Below, piece after piece: positions 17,897 to 23,565 of a stretch of DNA of 64,000 nucleotides (within the stretch, counting starts at the first letter, position 1; each line of letters opens with the position of its first letter). Origin of the DNA: Candidatus Stoquefichus sp. SB1 (GTDB taxonomy: Bacteria > Bacillota_I > Bacilli_A > Erysipelotrichales > Coprobacillaceae); NCBI RefSeq assembly GCF_001244545.1, contig NZ_LN852693.1, positions 320,656 to 384,655 of the forward strand, written 5' to 3'. A program made the translations under genes and the position numbers. The notes under the pieces are model-generated. The model searched no databases. It saw only the letters and a program-made list of their open reading frames with translations, and had not been told where the DNA came from.

Positions 17897-18487
17897 TTAT
17901 TTATCACATAGTTTTAAAATACAATCCCAAATTTCTTCAATTCCTGTTTTAGATAAACTAGAAAATCTAACAAACATATCATCTTTATCAAAAGACAATG
18001 TCTCTTTAATTAACTTTTCATTTTTCTTTAAATCATTTCTTTTTAGTTTATCTTCTTTCGTAGCTACAACAATAACAGGAATCTGATAATATTTTGCATA
18101 TTGATACATTTCAATATCATCACGAGTTGGTTTATGTCGATAATCAACAATTAATACTAATCCTTTTAAAGTATCACGTTCTTTCAAATATGTATCAATC
18201 ATTTCACCAAAGCTTTCTTTAATTTTATCATGGACTTTTGCAAAGCCATAGCCTGGTACATCAACGAGACGTAATTCATCATTAATGTTAAAGAAATTAA
18301 GTGTTCTGGTTTTTCCAGGCGTTCCTGATACTTTCGCTAGTTTACTATGATTTGTAATTGTATTAATGAGACTTGATTTTCCAACATTACTACGTCCAGC
18401 CAAACAAATCTCTGGCAAATTATTTTCAGGCCATTGTGATTTCCAAGCTGCACACAATACGAATTCAGCTTTTTTTATTTTAAACAT
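17897..18487 (-). CDS. engB: Ribosome biogenesis GTPase EngB/YsxC
   Basis: GTPase required for assembly of the 50S subunit. The 196 residues from ATG 18487 (SD AAGGAGGAAG) include G1 GRSNVGKSS, G2 GTPGKTRTLNFF, G3 DVPGYGFA and G4 TKEDK. A longer frame upstream lacks an SD. The order engB-lon-tig matches B. subtilis. Confidence 0.96.
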   Translation of the reverse strand: MFKIKKAEFVLCAAWKSQWPENNLPEICLAGRSNVGKSSLINTITNHSKLAKVSGTPGKTRTLNFFNINDELRLVDVPGYGFAKVHDKIKESFGEMIDTYLKERDTLKGLVLIVDYRHKPTRDDIEMYQYAKYYQIPVIVVATKEDKLKRNDLKKNEKLIKETLSFDKDDMFVRFSSLSKTGIEEIWDCILKLCDK

Positions 18488-18625
18488 TGTCTTCCTCCTT
18501 ATGCAATATACACATTTCTTTTCTTTATACATCTTAACATAAAAACATCAAAATACCTAGTAAAAAAAGAACTGTTAAAAACCCATTAAAACCTATCTTA
18601 AAAAATCATTTTATGATCATAAAAA

Positions 18626-18649
18626 GCAAAAAAGAGTCCATAGACTCTT
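18626..18649 (-). terminator. Terminator after lon
   Basis: AAGAGTC-TATG-GACTCTT stem followed by TTTTTT on the minus strand, overlapping the lon stop. Confidence 0.8.
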
Positions 18650-20972
18650 ATTTGACTAAAGCATTTTCTAAAACAGTATCAATATGATCAGCTAAAACAA
18701 TTTTTAAATCTTTTTGAACTGATTGAGGAATTTCATCTATATCTTTTTCATTATCTTTAGGAATAATAATTGTACGAATTCCACTACGATGAGCAGAAAT
18801 AGATTTTTCCTTCAGTCCACCAATTGGTAAAACTTGTCCTCTTAAAGTAATTTCTCCTGTCATTGCAACATCATCACGTACAGGTCGATTACTAAACGCT
18901 GATAAAATTGCAGTTGTTAAAGTGACTCCAGCACTTGGACCATCTTTTTTCACTGCTCCTTCAGGAACATGAATATGGATATCTTCCTTATCAAAAGCAA
19001 TATCCTGTAATCCATATTTTTCACGATTTGCTTTCATATAATCAAGCGCAATCGATGCTGATTCTTTCATCACATCTCCCAATTGTCCAGTAATAATAAA
19101 TTTACCTGTACCATTAAAATGGTTTACTTCAATTGGTAAAATATCTCCACCATATTGTGTATAAGCCATACCAGTCACAACACCCACTTGTGGTTTATCT
19201 AATTTCTTAGTATGTTCAAATGGTGCTTTGCCTAAATATTCTTCTAAATCCTTCACTTCCACAATTAATGAAAGTGCAGCATTTTTTAGAATTTTTAATA
19301 CAGCCTTACGACAGATTTGAGCAATTAATCTCTCTAATTGTCTCACCCCTGCTTCTCTTGTATAATGACGAATAACAGACATCATTGTTTCATCAGGAAT
19401 CACTAATTGTTCAGCTTTTAACCCATGTCTTTCAAGTTCTTTCTTTAAAAGATGACGTTTTGCAATTTCTAATTTTTCTTGTTCTGTATAAGAAGAAATT
19501 TCAATAATTTCCAAACGATCACGTAATGGTTCAGGAATTCCACCTAAATCATTTGCAGTCGCAATAAAGAGAACTTTTGATAAATCATAAGGTTCTTCTA
19601 AATAATTATCTGAAAAGAATTGATTCTGTTCAGGATCCAACACTTCAAGCATAGCACTTGTTGGATCACCCTTATAATCACTAGACATTTTATCAATTTC
19701 ATCCAATAAGAACACTGGATTAATAACACCAGCCTTTTTCATACTTTGGATAATTCTTCCTGGCATAGAACCTAAATAAGTTCTACGATGACCTCTTACT
19801 TCTGCTTCGTCTTTCACTCCACCTAAGGAAGCTTTCACAAATTTTCTTCCTAATGCTCTAGCAATAGACTTAGAAATAGATGTTTTTCCGACTCCTGGTG
19901 GACCAACCAAACAAATAATTGGAGCATTTAATGACTGTGTCATTTGTTTCACTGCTAAATGTTCAACAATTCTTTCTTTTGGCTTTTCTAATCCAAAATG
20001 ATCTTCTTCTAAAACACGTTCAACTTCACTAATATCTTGAACATCTTCTGTCTCTTGATACCATGGTGTTTTTAAAACCCAATCAATATATGTTCTGACT
20101 ACGTTAGCTTCTGAAGAAGCAGCAGGCATCATATCATAACGTCTTAATTCTTCTTCAATTTTATCTTTAATATATTGTGGATATGGTTTTGTATTGATTT
20201 CTTCTCTAATATAATCAGTATCATCTTCTTTATTAGGTGTATCCCCTAATTCTTCTTTAATAGCACGTAGCTTTTCTCTTAAATAATACTCTTTTTGATT
20301 CTCATCAATACTTTCTTTCACTTTAAGATTAATTTTTTCTTCTAACTCATTAATAACTTTTTCTTCTTCCATACTTGCTAAGACAAGTAATAGACGTTTA
20401 TTAATATCACATTCAGCAAGAATTTTTTGCTTTGTTTGTAATTCTACATTAATATATTGACCAATTGTATCTGCTAATGCACTGGCACTCATACCTTGAG
20501 ATAAATTTGAAAAGACTTCACGAGGAAACATTTGTAAGTTTTTATTCATTGATTGCATTTGTTCAGTTACTTTACGCACTAATGCAACTTCTTCTGTTTT
20601 CTCACCTTGAATATCTTCTAAATATTTAACCTTAGAGAATAAGCATCCATCTCTTTCTTCAAGATTTAAGATTTCAACTCTTTTTTGTCCTTCTACTGTT
20701 AATTTAATTGTTCCATGATTATCTCTCTTAATTCTTCTTTTGACTTTACACAATGTTCCAAAATGAAAAACATGATCATAATCTGTATTCTCATCAATTG
20801 GATTTTTCTGAGAAATAAAAACAATATTTTCATCAAATTCATTAATACTTTTTTCAATTGCTTTTAAGCTAAAACTTCTTCCAACATCCAAAGAAATTTC
20901 ATGTGTAGGAAAAACAATCATTCCTCTTGTACAAATGACAGGTAAATCAACGACAATATCTAATTCTTCCAT
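18648..20972 (-). CDS. lon: ATP-dependent protease Lon
   Basis: Cytoplasmic AAA+ serine protease for damaged and regulatory proteins. The 774 residues show the N-terminal LAN domain, a coiled-coil middle, Walker A GPPGVGKTS near 352, Walker B FLLDEIDKM and the Ser-Lys dyad (S680 in DGPSAGVTL, K723 in GGLKEKS). The start has an AGGTAATG-type SD. In B. subtilis lonB and clpX lie between lonA and tig; here lon is followed upstream directly by tig, so both are missing from this place. Confidence 0.97.
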   Translation of the reverse strand: MEELDIVVDLPVICTRGMIVFPTHEISLDVGRSFSLKAIEKSINEFDENIVFISQKNPIDENTDYDHVFHFGTLCKVKRRIKRDNHGTIKLTVEGQKRVEILNLEERDGCLFSKVKYLEDIQGEKTEEVALVRKVTEQMQSMNKNLQMFPREVFSNLSQGMSASALADTIGQYINVELQTKQKILAECDINKRLLLVLASMEEEKVINELEEKINLKVKESIDENQKEYYLREKLRAIKEELGDTPNKEDDTDYIREEINTKPYPQYIKDKIEEELRRYDMMPAASSEANVVRTYIDWVLKTPWYQETEDVQDISEVERVLEEDHFGLEKPKERIVEHLAVKQMTQSLNAPIICLVGPPGVGKTSISKSIARALGRKFVKASLGGVKDEAEVRGHRRTYLGSMPGRIIQSMKKAGVINPVFLLDEIDKMSSDYKGDPTSAMLEVLDPEQNQFFSDNYLEEPYDLSKVLFIATANDLGGIPEPLRDRLEIIEISSYTEQEKLEIAKRHLLKKELERHGLKAEQLVIPDETMMSVIRHYTREAGVRQLERLIAQICRKAVLKILKNAALSLIVEVKDLEEYLGKAPFEHTKKLDKPQVGVVTGMAYTQYGGDILPIEVNHFNGTGKFIITGQLGDVMKESASIALDYMKANREKYGLQDIAFDKEDIHIHVPEGAVKKDGPSAGVTLTTAILSAFSNRPVRDDVAMTGEITLRGQVLPIGGLKEKSISAHRSGIRTIIIPKDNEKDIDEIPQSVQKDLKIVLADHIDTVLENALVK

Positions 20973-21074
20973 AATTCATTACCTCCTTTACAAAGATGAA
21001 ATTCTTTATCATCCAGTTCTTCATTATTATATATAATAATGTTTCACTTGTCCATCCAAACGCCTTACTAAAAC

Positions 21075-21093
21075 AAGACGCGTCAAGCGTCTT
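21075..21093 (-). terminator. Hairpin after tig
   Basis: AAGACGC-TTGAC-GCGTCTT on the minus strand, with the weak tail GTTTTAG, at the tig stop codon. It probably separates tig from lon. Confidence 0.55.
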
Positions 21094-22372
21094 ATTTCAC
21101 GTTATCTTTGATTAATTGAACAGCTTTACGAGTTGCTAAATCTGATTTAATTTGTCCTAATTGACCTTCAAAGATTTTCTTGACTTCATCAAATTCTCTA
21201 CCATAATAAGTAGCAATTTCTTTGATTTCTTCATCAATTTCTTCATCACTGACTTCAATGTTTTCAACTTTGACAATTTCAGCTAAAATCAAATTAAACT
21301 TAACACGTTTTTCAGCTTGTTCTCTCATTTCAGCTTTCATATCATCCATTGTTTTACCAGTTAATTGTTGGAACAATTCCATATTTAACCCCTGTTGAGA
21401 TAAATTTTGTTCCACTTCTCTTAACATTTGATCCGTTTCAGTTGCAACCATTGCTTCTGGAACTTCTAATGGAGTATTTTCGATAACTGCGTTAAAAATA
21501 TCATCACTGAACTTAGATTCTACTTCACTTTGTTTTCTATTTTTAATTTGTTCTTTTGTATATGTTTCTAAATCAGCTAATGTTTCAATACCATCAATAT
21601 TTACATCTTTAGCTAATTCATCATCAATTTCAGGTAATACTTTTGATTTGATTTCATGAACTTTTACTTTAAAGATAACTTCTTGTCCTGCTAAATCAGC
21701 AGCTTGATAATTTTCTGGGAATGTCACGTTAATTTCTTTTTCTTCATCAACTTTCATTCCAACAACTTGATCTTCAAAGCCAGGAATAAATGACCCTGAA
21801 CCGATTTCTAATTCATGATTTTCAGCTTGTCCACCATCAAAAGCGACACCATCTTTAAATCCTTCATAGTCAATAACTGCTGTATCACCGTTTTCAACAA
21901 CACCACCATCTTTAATCACAAGTTCTGCAAATTGATTCTGATAATTCTTTAATTCAGCTTCAATTTCTTTCTTTGTAACTTTGACTTGACCTTTTTTAAC
22001 ATCTAAACCTTTATATTCACCTAATGTCACTTCAGGAGCAACTGGTGCAGTCACTGTTACTTTTAAGATGTCTTCAGTTAATTCATCAATTTTTACTTCT
22101 GGTTGTCCAACAGGATGAATGTCATTATCTAATAAGATTCCTGCATAACTTTTTTGTAAAATAACATCTGTTGCTTCTTCTAAAATAGCTGCTTTACCAA
22201 TTCTTGCTTTCACCATTTTAGCTGGCGCATGTCCTTGTCTAAAACCATCAATTTTTACATTTTTAGCTAATTTGTCTAATGCTTTTTTTTGTGCATCTTG
22301 CCACTCTTCAGTTGTAAAAGTGACTTTTACTTCCATCATACATTTTTCTAGTTTGTTACAAACTGTTTCCAT
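21092..22372 (-). CDS. tig: Trigger factor, ribosome-bound chaperone/prolyl isomerase
   Basis: Binds L23 at the exit tunnel. The 426 residues comprise the ribosome-binding domain with signature GFRQGHAP (about 43-50), the FKBP-type domain (about 160-245: GDTAVIDYEGFKDG, FPENYQAADLAG) and the helical C-terminal arms. The start ATG 22372 has a GGAGGAAG SD. Its vegetative promoter (22403-22431) has a CIRCE-type operator just upstream, so HrcA control is likely. Confidence 0.97.
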   Translation of the reverse strand: METVCNKLEKCMMEVKVTFTTEEWQDAQKKALDKLAKNVKIDGFRQGHAPAKMVKARIGKAAILEEATDVILQKSYAGILLDNDIHPVGQPEVKIDELTEDILKVTVTAPVAPEVTLGEYKGLDVKKGQVKVTKKEIEAELKNYQNQFAELVIKDGGVVENGDTAVIDYEGFKDGVAFDGGQAENHELEIGSGSFIPGFEDQVVGMKVDEEKEINVTFPENYQAADLAGQEVIFKVKVHEIKSKVLPEIDDELAKDVNIDGIETLADLETYTKEQIKNRKQSEVESKFSDDIFNAVIENTPLEVPEAMVATETDQMLREVEQNLSQQGLNMELFQQLTGKTMDDMKAEMREQAEKRVKFNLILAEIVKVENIEVSDEEIDEEIKEIATYYGREFDEVKKIFEGQLGQIKSDLATRKAVQLIKDNVK

Positions 22373-22402
22373 TTATACTTCCTCCATTATTTCAACACGC
22401 AT

Positions 22403-22431
22403 ATTATACATGAAACATCATAAGAATGCAA
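22403..22431 (-). promoter_or_regulatory. Promoter of tig
   Basis: TTGCAT -35, 17-nt spacer, TATAAT -10 on the minus strand, between the YsoA-like gene and tig. Confidence 0.75.
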
Positions 22432-22436
22432 CCATT

Positions 22437-22463
22437 TTAACACTCTATTTGCTTGAGTGCTAA
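22437..22463. promoter_or_regulatory. CIRCE operator (HrcA site) upstream of tig
   Basis: TTAACACTC-N9-GAGTGCTAA: 17 of 18 arm positions match the CIRCE consensus TTAGCACTC-N9-GAGTGCTAA, with exactly nine bases between the arms. It lies 5 bp upstream of the tig -35. It overlaps the last codons and the stop codon of the YsoA-like gene, so it is both coding and regulatory. hrcA is outside this window. Confidence 0.85.
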
Positions 22464-23360
22464 AATTTGCTGTTCTATCTCATTTTTATCACAATAATAC
22501 CATATTTCTAAATCTTCCAAGTCAACATCCATCGATTGTAATGTTGCTACATAATAATGTATAGCTGCTGCCCAAACATTATATTCATCATCATAAATCT
22601 CACGCGGATAAAATGCGTAAAGAATATATTCTAGATAATCAATACATTGTTCTAAGAGTACGGGATTATCTGATTCAATCACATTTTCTAGATATTTAAG
22701 AATCCCACTATATTGAGGCTGTTCTAAAACCAAAGGCATATAAGTTGGATTCATATCATATATCATTCCAAATTTTTCAATTTGTAAATCTTCATCAACC
22801 TGCTGATCAATCATTATTTCTAGTAATAATGTTTTTGCAAAAAAGTGACGATAAGGATTAACAAGATATTCACGAATTGTTGGAATAAGCATACGGACAT
22901 TTAACTGCTGAAGTTGATCAATTGCCATATACAAAAGATCTTCATTACATTCTTTCTTTTTAAGAATCTGATCAATTTCTTCAACTGAAAAAATTTGATT
23001 TTTTGATTCCACTTCATAATTCATCTCTTGTTTTTCAAGTAAGATTTCATCATATGCTGTATTAAATAACATTTCATATTGATAAGGAATATATGGCATT
23101 GAAAGTTCTTCAATTAAAATATTAATAGCTTCATCAAACTCATTTAATTCCTTTAATGTTGTGACATACATTGAAACAACATCATAATATGTCTCTTTAG
23201 CATTTGCTTTTGCCCATGCACCTTCTGCTTTAGCCTTAGCGTATTCACCTAATCCAACTAAACAAACAAGACGCAAATAACGTGTATTTTCATCATTCAT
23301 ATCCGTTAATAATGAAAGTGCCTGAGTATATTCACCCATTTGAATCAATTCTTCAATCAT
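22437..23360 (-). CDS. ysoA: YsoA-like tetratricopeptide-type protein
   Basis: A 307-residue, largely helical acidic protein from ATG 23360 (SD AAGGAGGTG). Paired-helix repeats at the N-terminus (GEYTQALSLLTDMNDENTRY; EFDEAINILIEEL) suggest TPR units; the C-terminal half is helical without a named motif. Position just upstream of tig equals that of ysoA in B. subtilis, the basis for the symbol. Biochemical role unknown. Its last codons form the CIRCE element. Confidence 0.6.
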   Translation of the reverse strand: MIEELIQMGEYTQALSLLTDMNDENTRYLRLVCLVGLGEYAKAKAEGAWAKANAKETYYDVVSMYVTTLKELNEFDEAINILIEELSMPYIPYQYEMLFNTAYDEILLEKQEMNYEVESKNQIFSVEEIDQILKKKECNEDLLYMAIDQLQQLNVRMLIPTIREYLVNPYRHFFAKTLLLEIMIDQQVDEDLQIEKFGMIYDMNPTYMPLVLEQPQYSGILKYLENVIESDNPVLLEQCIDYLEYILYAFYPREIYDDEYNVWAAAIHYYVATLQSMDVDLEDLEIWYYCDKNEIEQQILALKQIEC

Positions 23361-23565
23361 TCTTCCACCTCCTTGACTTGCAATAGACATTCTATCAAAG
23401 ATATAACTTTTAATCAAATAAAAGTCAAATTATTTTTCCTTAATAGCAATCTTTAGAACATCAATCAAATATTCATACAAATATTGATTTTTGCAAACCT
23501 CATAAACAAATGACATTTATATTATATAGAAATAACATATTTATATTTTGTCATAGAAAACAAAT

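Follow-up and report, generated by a model that had tools for sequence, protein, structure and literature searches.

HrcA represses transcription through the CIRCE operator and depends on GroEL, as described in both B. subtilis (PMC8957991) and M. pneumoniae (PMC7737663). In the latter, lon expression comes from the tig promoter, with a CIRCE upstream of lon itself, and tig is absent from the listed HrcA targets (PMC7737663). A CIRCE at lon is also described in M. gallisepticum (PMC4245973) and S. melliferum (PMC5138195). In the gut Firmicute studied here, Candidatus Stoquefichus sp. SB1, a CIRCE lies just before tig and doubles as the end of the upstream gene; from this we infer that the tig-lon chaperone-protease pair has probably been drafted into the heat-shock regulon, in this organism and in about half of its sampled family. 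The usual view of trigger factor is that of a constitutively produced chaperone; in this case it seems to have joined the heat-shock regulon, together with Lon.

The window, the whole stretch of 64,000 nucleotides that was analysed, carries on its minus strand a ysoA-like gene followed by tig, lon and engB. The CIRCE operator (TTAGCACTC-N9-GAGTGTTAA on the tig strand, hence minus) occupies 22437-22463 and reads TTAGCACTC-AAGCAAATA-GAGTGTTAA in full. Compared with the consensus dyad used as the test pattern, TTAGCACTC-N9-GAGTGCTAA with few mismatches allowed, it agrees at 17 of the 18 arm bases with the exact 9-bp gap, its sole arm mismatch being T instead of C at position 24. No other match occurs in the 64-kb window at up to three mismatches, where shuffling predicts 0.01. 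All 27 bp translate as LALKQIEC-stop, the eight C-terminal residues and stop of the ysoA-like TPR-type protein (22437-23360, minus strand, with a possible upstream TTG start at 23417), and the last three bases of the operator are the stop codon. An earlier note on this DNA had claimed the arm match and spacing, the sharing of coding and operator sequence, the position upstream of tig and a distance of 5 bp to the -35 element of a good tig promoter, and all of these are borne out.

That promoter consists of TTGCAT (22426-22431, minus strand), 5 bp from the operator, a 17-bp spacer and a TG-extended TATAAT (22403-22408, minus). A Shine-Dalgarno sequence, GGAGGAA, was recognized by eye at 22379-22385 (minus), and the tig ATG lies 64 bp downstream of the CIRCE. 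The gene (21092-22372, minus) encodes a full trigger factor of 426 aa with Trigger_N, FKBP_C and Trigger_C domains. It is followed by lon (18648-20972, minus; 774 aa), with a terminator-like hairpin at the lon end (18632-18649, minus), and on the same strand by an engB/ysxC-type GTPase (17897-18532), its family named by eye from the translation. No terminator-like site was found in the tig-lon gap, which does contain a promoter-like TGGACA-N17-TATAAT (21026-21054, minus), possibly a separate lon promoter. Each of the 20 family genomes checked has lon 38-119 bp after tig, and the likely target of the CIRCE is the tig-lon cluster as a whole, not just tig. The name ysoA-like is supported by remote similarity to the gene preceding tig in Listeria, Salipaludibacillus and others; the ortholog in the relative G003 matches DUF3196, and a PDB search with the protein yielded only chance-level matches. 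Separately, one genome encodes a paralog of trigger factor, about 320 aa in length (G000:C4:727537-728445), whose alignment begins only at residue 116; the N-terminal ribosome-binding domain is thus apparently missing. Most family genomes have genes of this kind.

The earlier note proposed searching the genome for hrcA and further CIRCE sites, and both were found. The hrcA gene lies upstream of grpE-dnaK and its product matches PF01628 (E = 1.2e-58), with no Pfam model match to the N-terminal DNA-binding part. Genome-wide, CIRCE occurs at eight sites with up to two mismatches, compared with none for a reversed-pattern control, and at ten sites with up to three mismatches, compared with two for the control. 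The ten CIRCE-like sites precede hrcA-grpE-dnaK (two), groESL (two), clpB (two), htpG (two), hsp20 (one) and tig (one). More broadly, CIRCE at up to two mismatches is present in 40 of 40 genomes searched, the control pattern matching in one genome only, and the core targets recur across four relatives taken together. In two of these (G003 and G009) the sites belong to hrcA-dnaK, groESL, clpB, htpG and hsp20; the third (G015) has sites at groESL, clpB, htpG, hsp20 and one arginase-like gene; and in the fourth (G020) the CIRCE loci read comprise groESL, clpB and another Lon-type gene. The arginase-family gene, with a two-mismatch CIRCE directly upstream, is an unexpected HrcA target (L182:2497-3284). 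The second Lon-type protease gene (L198:2498-4807; 756 aa) is separate from the tig-lon cluster and has its own CIRCE directly upstream, with one mismatch. A search for CtsR gave no match but also missed its B. subtilis control.

The CIRCE is found upstream of tig in 22 of the 42 family genomes having a tig locus, and on the TF tree a starred branch (100/99) separates the site-bearing genomes from the rest. Named members include Longibaculum muris, Massilimicrobiota and Sharpea azabuensis; the tig locus of a Thomasclavelia MAG is without the site. The gap between CIRCE and -35 is 4-6 bp in 21 of the 22, TATAAT is invariant, and the promoter layout of -35, 17-bp spacer and TG-extended -10 is shared by nearly all of them. 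Roughly half of the family has no such CIRCE and retains a tig promoter. Among 43 family genomes, 20 each contain a single copy of the exact tig-type variant, which has T or A at position 24; the control pattern gives no match at all. Among 80 named tig loci only four have a CIRCE near tig, all of them of this family by sequence, and the Listeria, streptococcal and clostridial loci among the 80 have none. The CIRCE-before-tig arrangement characterizes part of the family. Occurrences of the tig-type variant outside the family were considered as tig sites and rejected, since a search of the class places the variant at htpG. The GAGTGATAA form of CIRCE was seen at htpG in other families of the class (L201-L206).

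Given that the dyad is here fully coding, it might be explained as a conserved C-terminal protein motif, LALKxxEC, which resembles CIRCE by chance and has no regulatory role. The C-terminal pattern L..LKQIE is indeed old, with relatives lacking the CIRCE ending in LNEIKQIEY. However, comparison of the ysoA-tig junction among relatives, as the earlier note had suggested, largely refutes this explanation, which we regard as extremely improbable. The CIRCE overlaps the end of the ysoA-like gene in 17 of the 22 site-bearing genomes, and in these arm identity is 97%, compared with 71% for the 60 preceding coding bases and 73% for the spacer. Rare synonymous codons are retained: CTC in 15 of the 17, against 4.6% in the same genes and 2% in the window, and GAG in all 17, against 16% and 11%, respectively. 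Within the arms, third codon positions other than the last vary little or not at all. In six genomes the reading frame already closes at a TGA in the codon before, and the arm nevertheless retains its TAA bases. In four further genomes (G019, G007, G022 and G048) the ysoA-like gene ends 125-175 bp earlier and the arms are intact outside it; promoter-like sequence is present between stop codon and separated CIRCE at these loci (L014, L019, L020 and L145). In G049, which has the CIRCE, the ysoA-like gene is unmatched in a short contig, so this genome enters neither the overlapping nor the separate count. Since rare CTC and GAG are kept where the site is coding and the arms stay intact outside the gene, selection acts on the DNA and not only on the protein. 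The earlier note's claim was open to refutation by absence of hrcA from the genome, which does carry it, and by loss of the dyad in close relatives with the C-terminal sequence kept; no such loss was seen, the arm bases being fixed, rare codons included, and the dyad surviving outside the gene in at least four relatives.

Placed at a stop codon, the 9-bp inverted repeat might also act as RNA, forming a hairpin that ends or protects the ysoA-like transcript, and in B. subtilis an effect on mRNA stability has been reported for CIRCE located in transcribed leaders. However, no T run follows the dyad and no terminator-like site was called there, and the arms are fixed in sequence, not just in pairing: in six genomes position 24 is A, which breaks the pair with G4. 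With a sequence that is the HrcA consensus and a nearly fixed distance to -35, an RNA role appears very unlikely. An Rfam search of six tig loci, including the four with an extra 125-175 bp before the CIRCE, returned no RNA family. A somewhat more credible reading, though still an unlikely one, is that HrcA binds but mainly roadblocks read-through from the ysoA-like gene, or that it assists the tig promoter instead of repressing it. In support, the operator is placed upstream of the promoter core, where the repressor is not usually found in this genome, and the promoter-like sequences between gene and CIRCE in the separated-site genomes, judged by eye, would suit such a role. Against this, a gap of 4-6 bp to -35 should bring an HrcA dimer into steric conflict with RNA polymerase, and upstream CIRCE sites are reported for the heat-induced clpB, dnaK, lon and dnaJ of M. 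gallisepticum (PMC4245973).

The reading we favour is that the tig dyad is probably a working HrcA operator which represses tig and, by read-through, partly lon, and is relieved on heat stress. HrcA binding, the direction and size of its effect and read-through into lon are what we infer here from sequence features. HrcA at the tig CIRCE would cover the DNA that abuts the -35 element on its upstream side, lowering initiation of tig transcripts, and of lon transcripts by read-through, in unstressed cells. Once GroEL is occupied by heat or misfolding, HrcA activity would be lost, and levels of trigger factor and, in part, of Lon would rise alongside DnaK, GroESL, ClpB, HtpG and Hsp20. Repression would work through obstruction at -35 and upstream contacts and would be lifted on stress. 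It should be only partial given the single site, the shared arm mismatch and the position outside the promoter core, which would fit the needs of a housekeeping chaperone.

Of the features that mark membership of an HrcA regulon, hrcA in the same genome, a dyad with few mismatches and a chaperone/protease operon promoter region conserved in relatives (22 of 42 genomes, at a near-fixed promoter distance) are all seen here. Most other HrcA promoters in this genome have one CIRCE containing -35 and a second between -10 and the ribosome-binding site; the tig promoter has a single CIRCE just upstream of -35, so that the usual, but not strictly required, overlap of operator with promoter core or start site is lacking. 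This position does not exclude regulon membership, since promoters preceded by a CIRCE are reported in M. gallisepticum (PMC4245973). Nevertheless, it counts against repression of tig, as do the arm mismatch at position 24, which no genome corrects to C even though TGC likewise codes for Cys, the half of the family without the site, the possible promoter of lon itself and the HrcA N-terminus without a Pfam match.

As for the origin of the site, the ysoA-like protein ends in IEY-stop in most relatives without CIRCE (LNEIKQIEY, IQSIEY), and in IEC-stop or IE-stop in those with it; few changes would convert GAATATTAA into GAGTGTTAA. One genome, G002, reads TTAGCACTTGGACAA-TTAAAATAGTTG, aligning to CIRCE with an 8-bp deletion that removes most of the right arm, and its sequence suggests a relic of the tig CIRCE. 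A single origin with G002 as sister of the site-bearing clade is disfavoured on the TF tree (AU p = 0.016, for a group named after the tree had been seen). If G002 is not the sister, an older gain with losses would follow, a tentative reading as the G002 genome is incomplete and on a long branch. We give about even odds to the following scenario: the operator arose in the coding end, changed the C-terminus from IEY-stop to IEC-stop or IE-stop, became the stop codon and brought a ribosome-bound chaperone and Lon under HrcA, later being freed in two lineages, lost in others and left as the 8-bp deletion relic in G002. With absent, overlapping, separated and decayed states all seen in relatives, the locus offers a clean series for operator evolution in coding DNA. 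A blastn search of the ysoA-tig junction against plasmids found no match. In G003, a CIRCE with two mismatches (L177, 6850-6876) precedes the ysoA-like start by about 16 bp and is apparently an independent recruitment of the same ysoA-tig-lon cluster. It resembles the tig CIRCE in being an HrcA site for this cluster and differs from it in position and in having two mismatches.

The regulon as a whole is like the class I regulon of B. subtilis (hrcA-grpE-dnaK-dnaJ and groESL), sharing its operator consensus and spacing and including hrcA, dnaK and groESL (PMC8957991). Unlike the latter, it also takes in clpB, htpG, hsp20 and tig(-lon), and its tig site lies upstream of -35, inside the coding end of the preceding gene. 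The nearest precedent is M. pneumoniae tig-lon (MPN331-MPN332), which has the same gene order and HrcA control of the cluster in another lineage. There, however, the CIRCE lies between tig and lon, whereas here it precedes tig. The earlier note had described HrcA control of trigger factor as outside the textbook arrangement. The open-access literature that was searched contained no report of CIRCE control of tig, nor of a CIRCE before tig inside the preceding gene, the M. pneumoniae element being one gene downstream, at lon. The tig CIRCE arrangement is an addition to a known regulon and no new kind of system.
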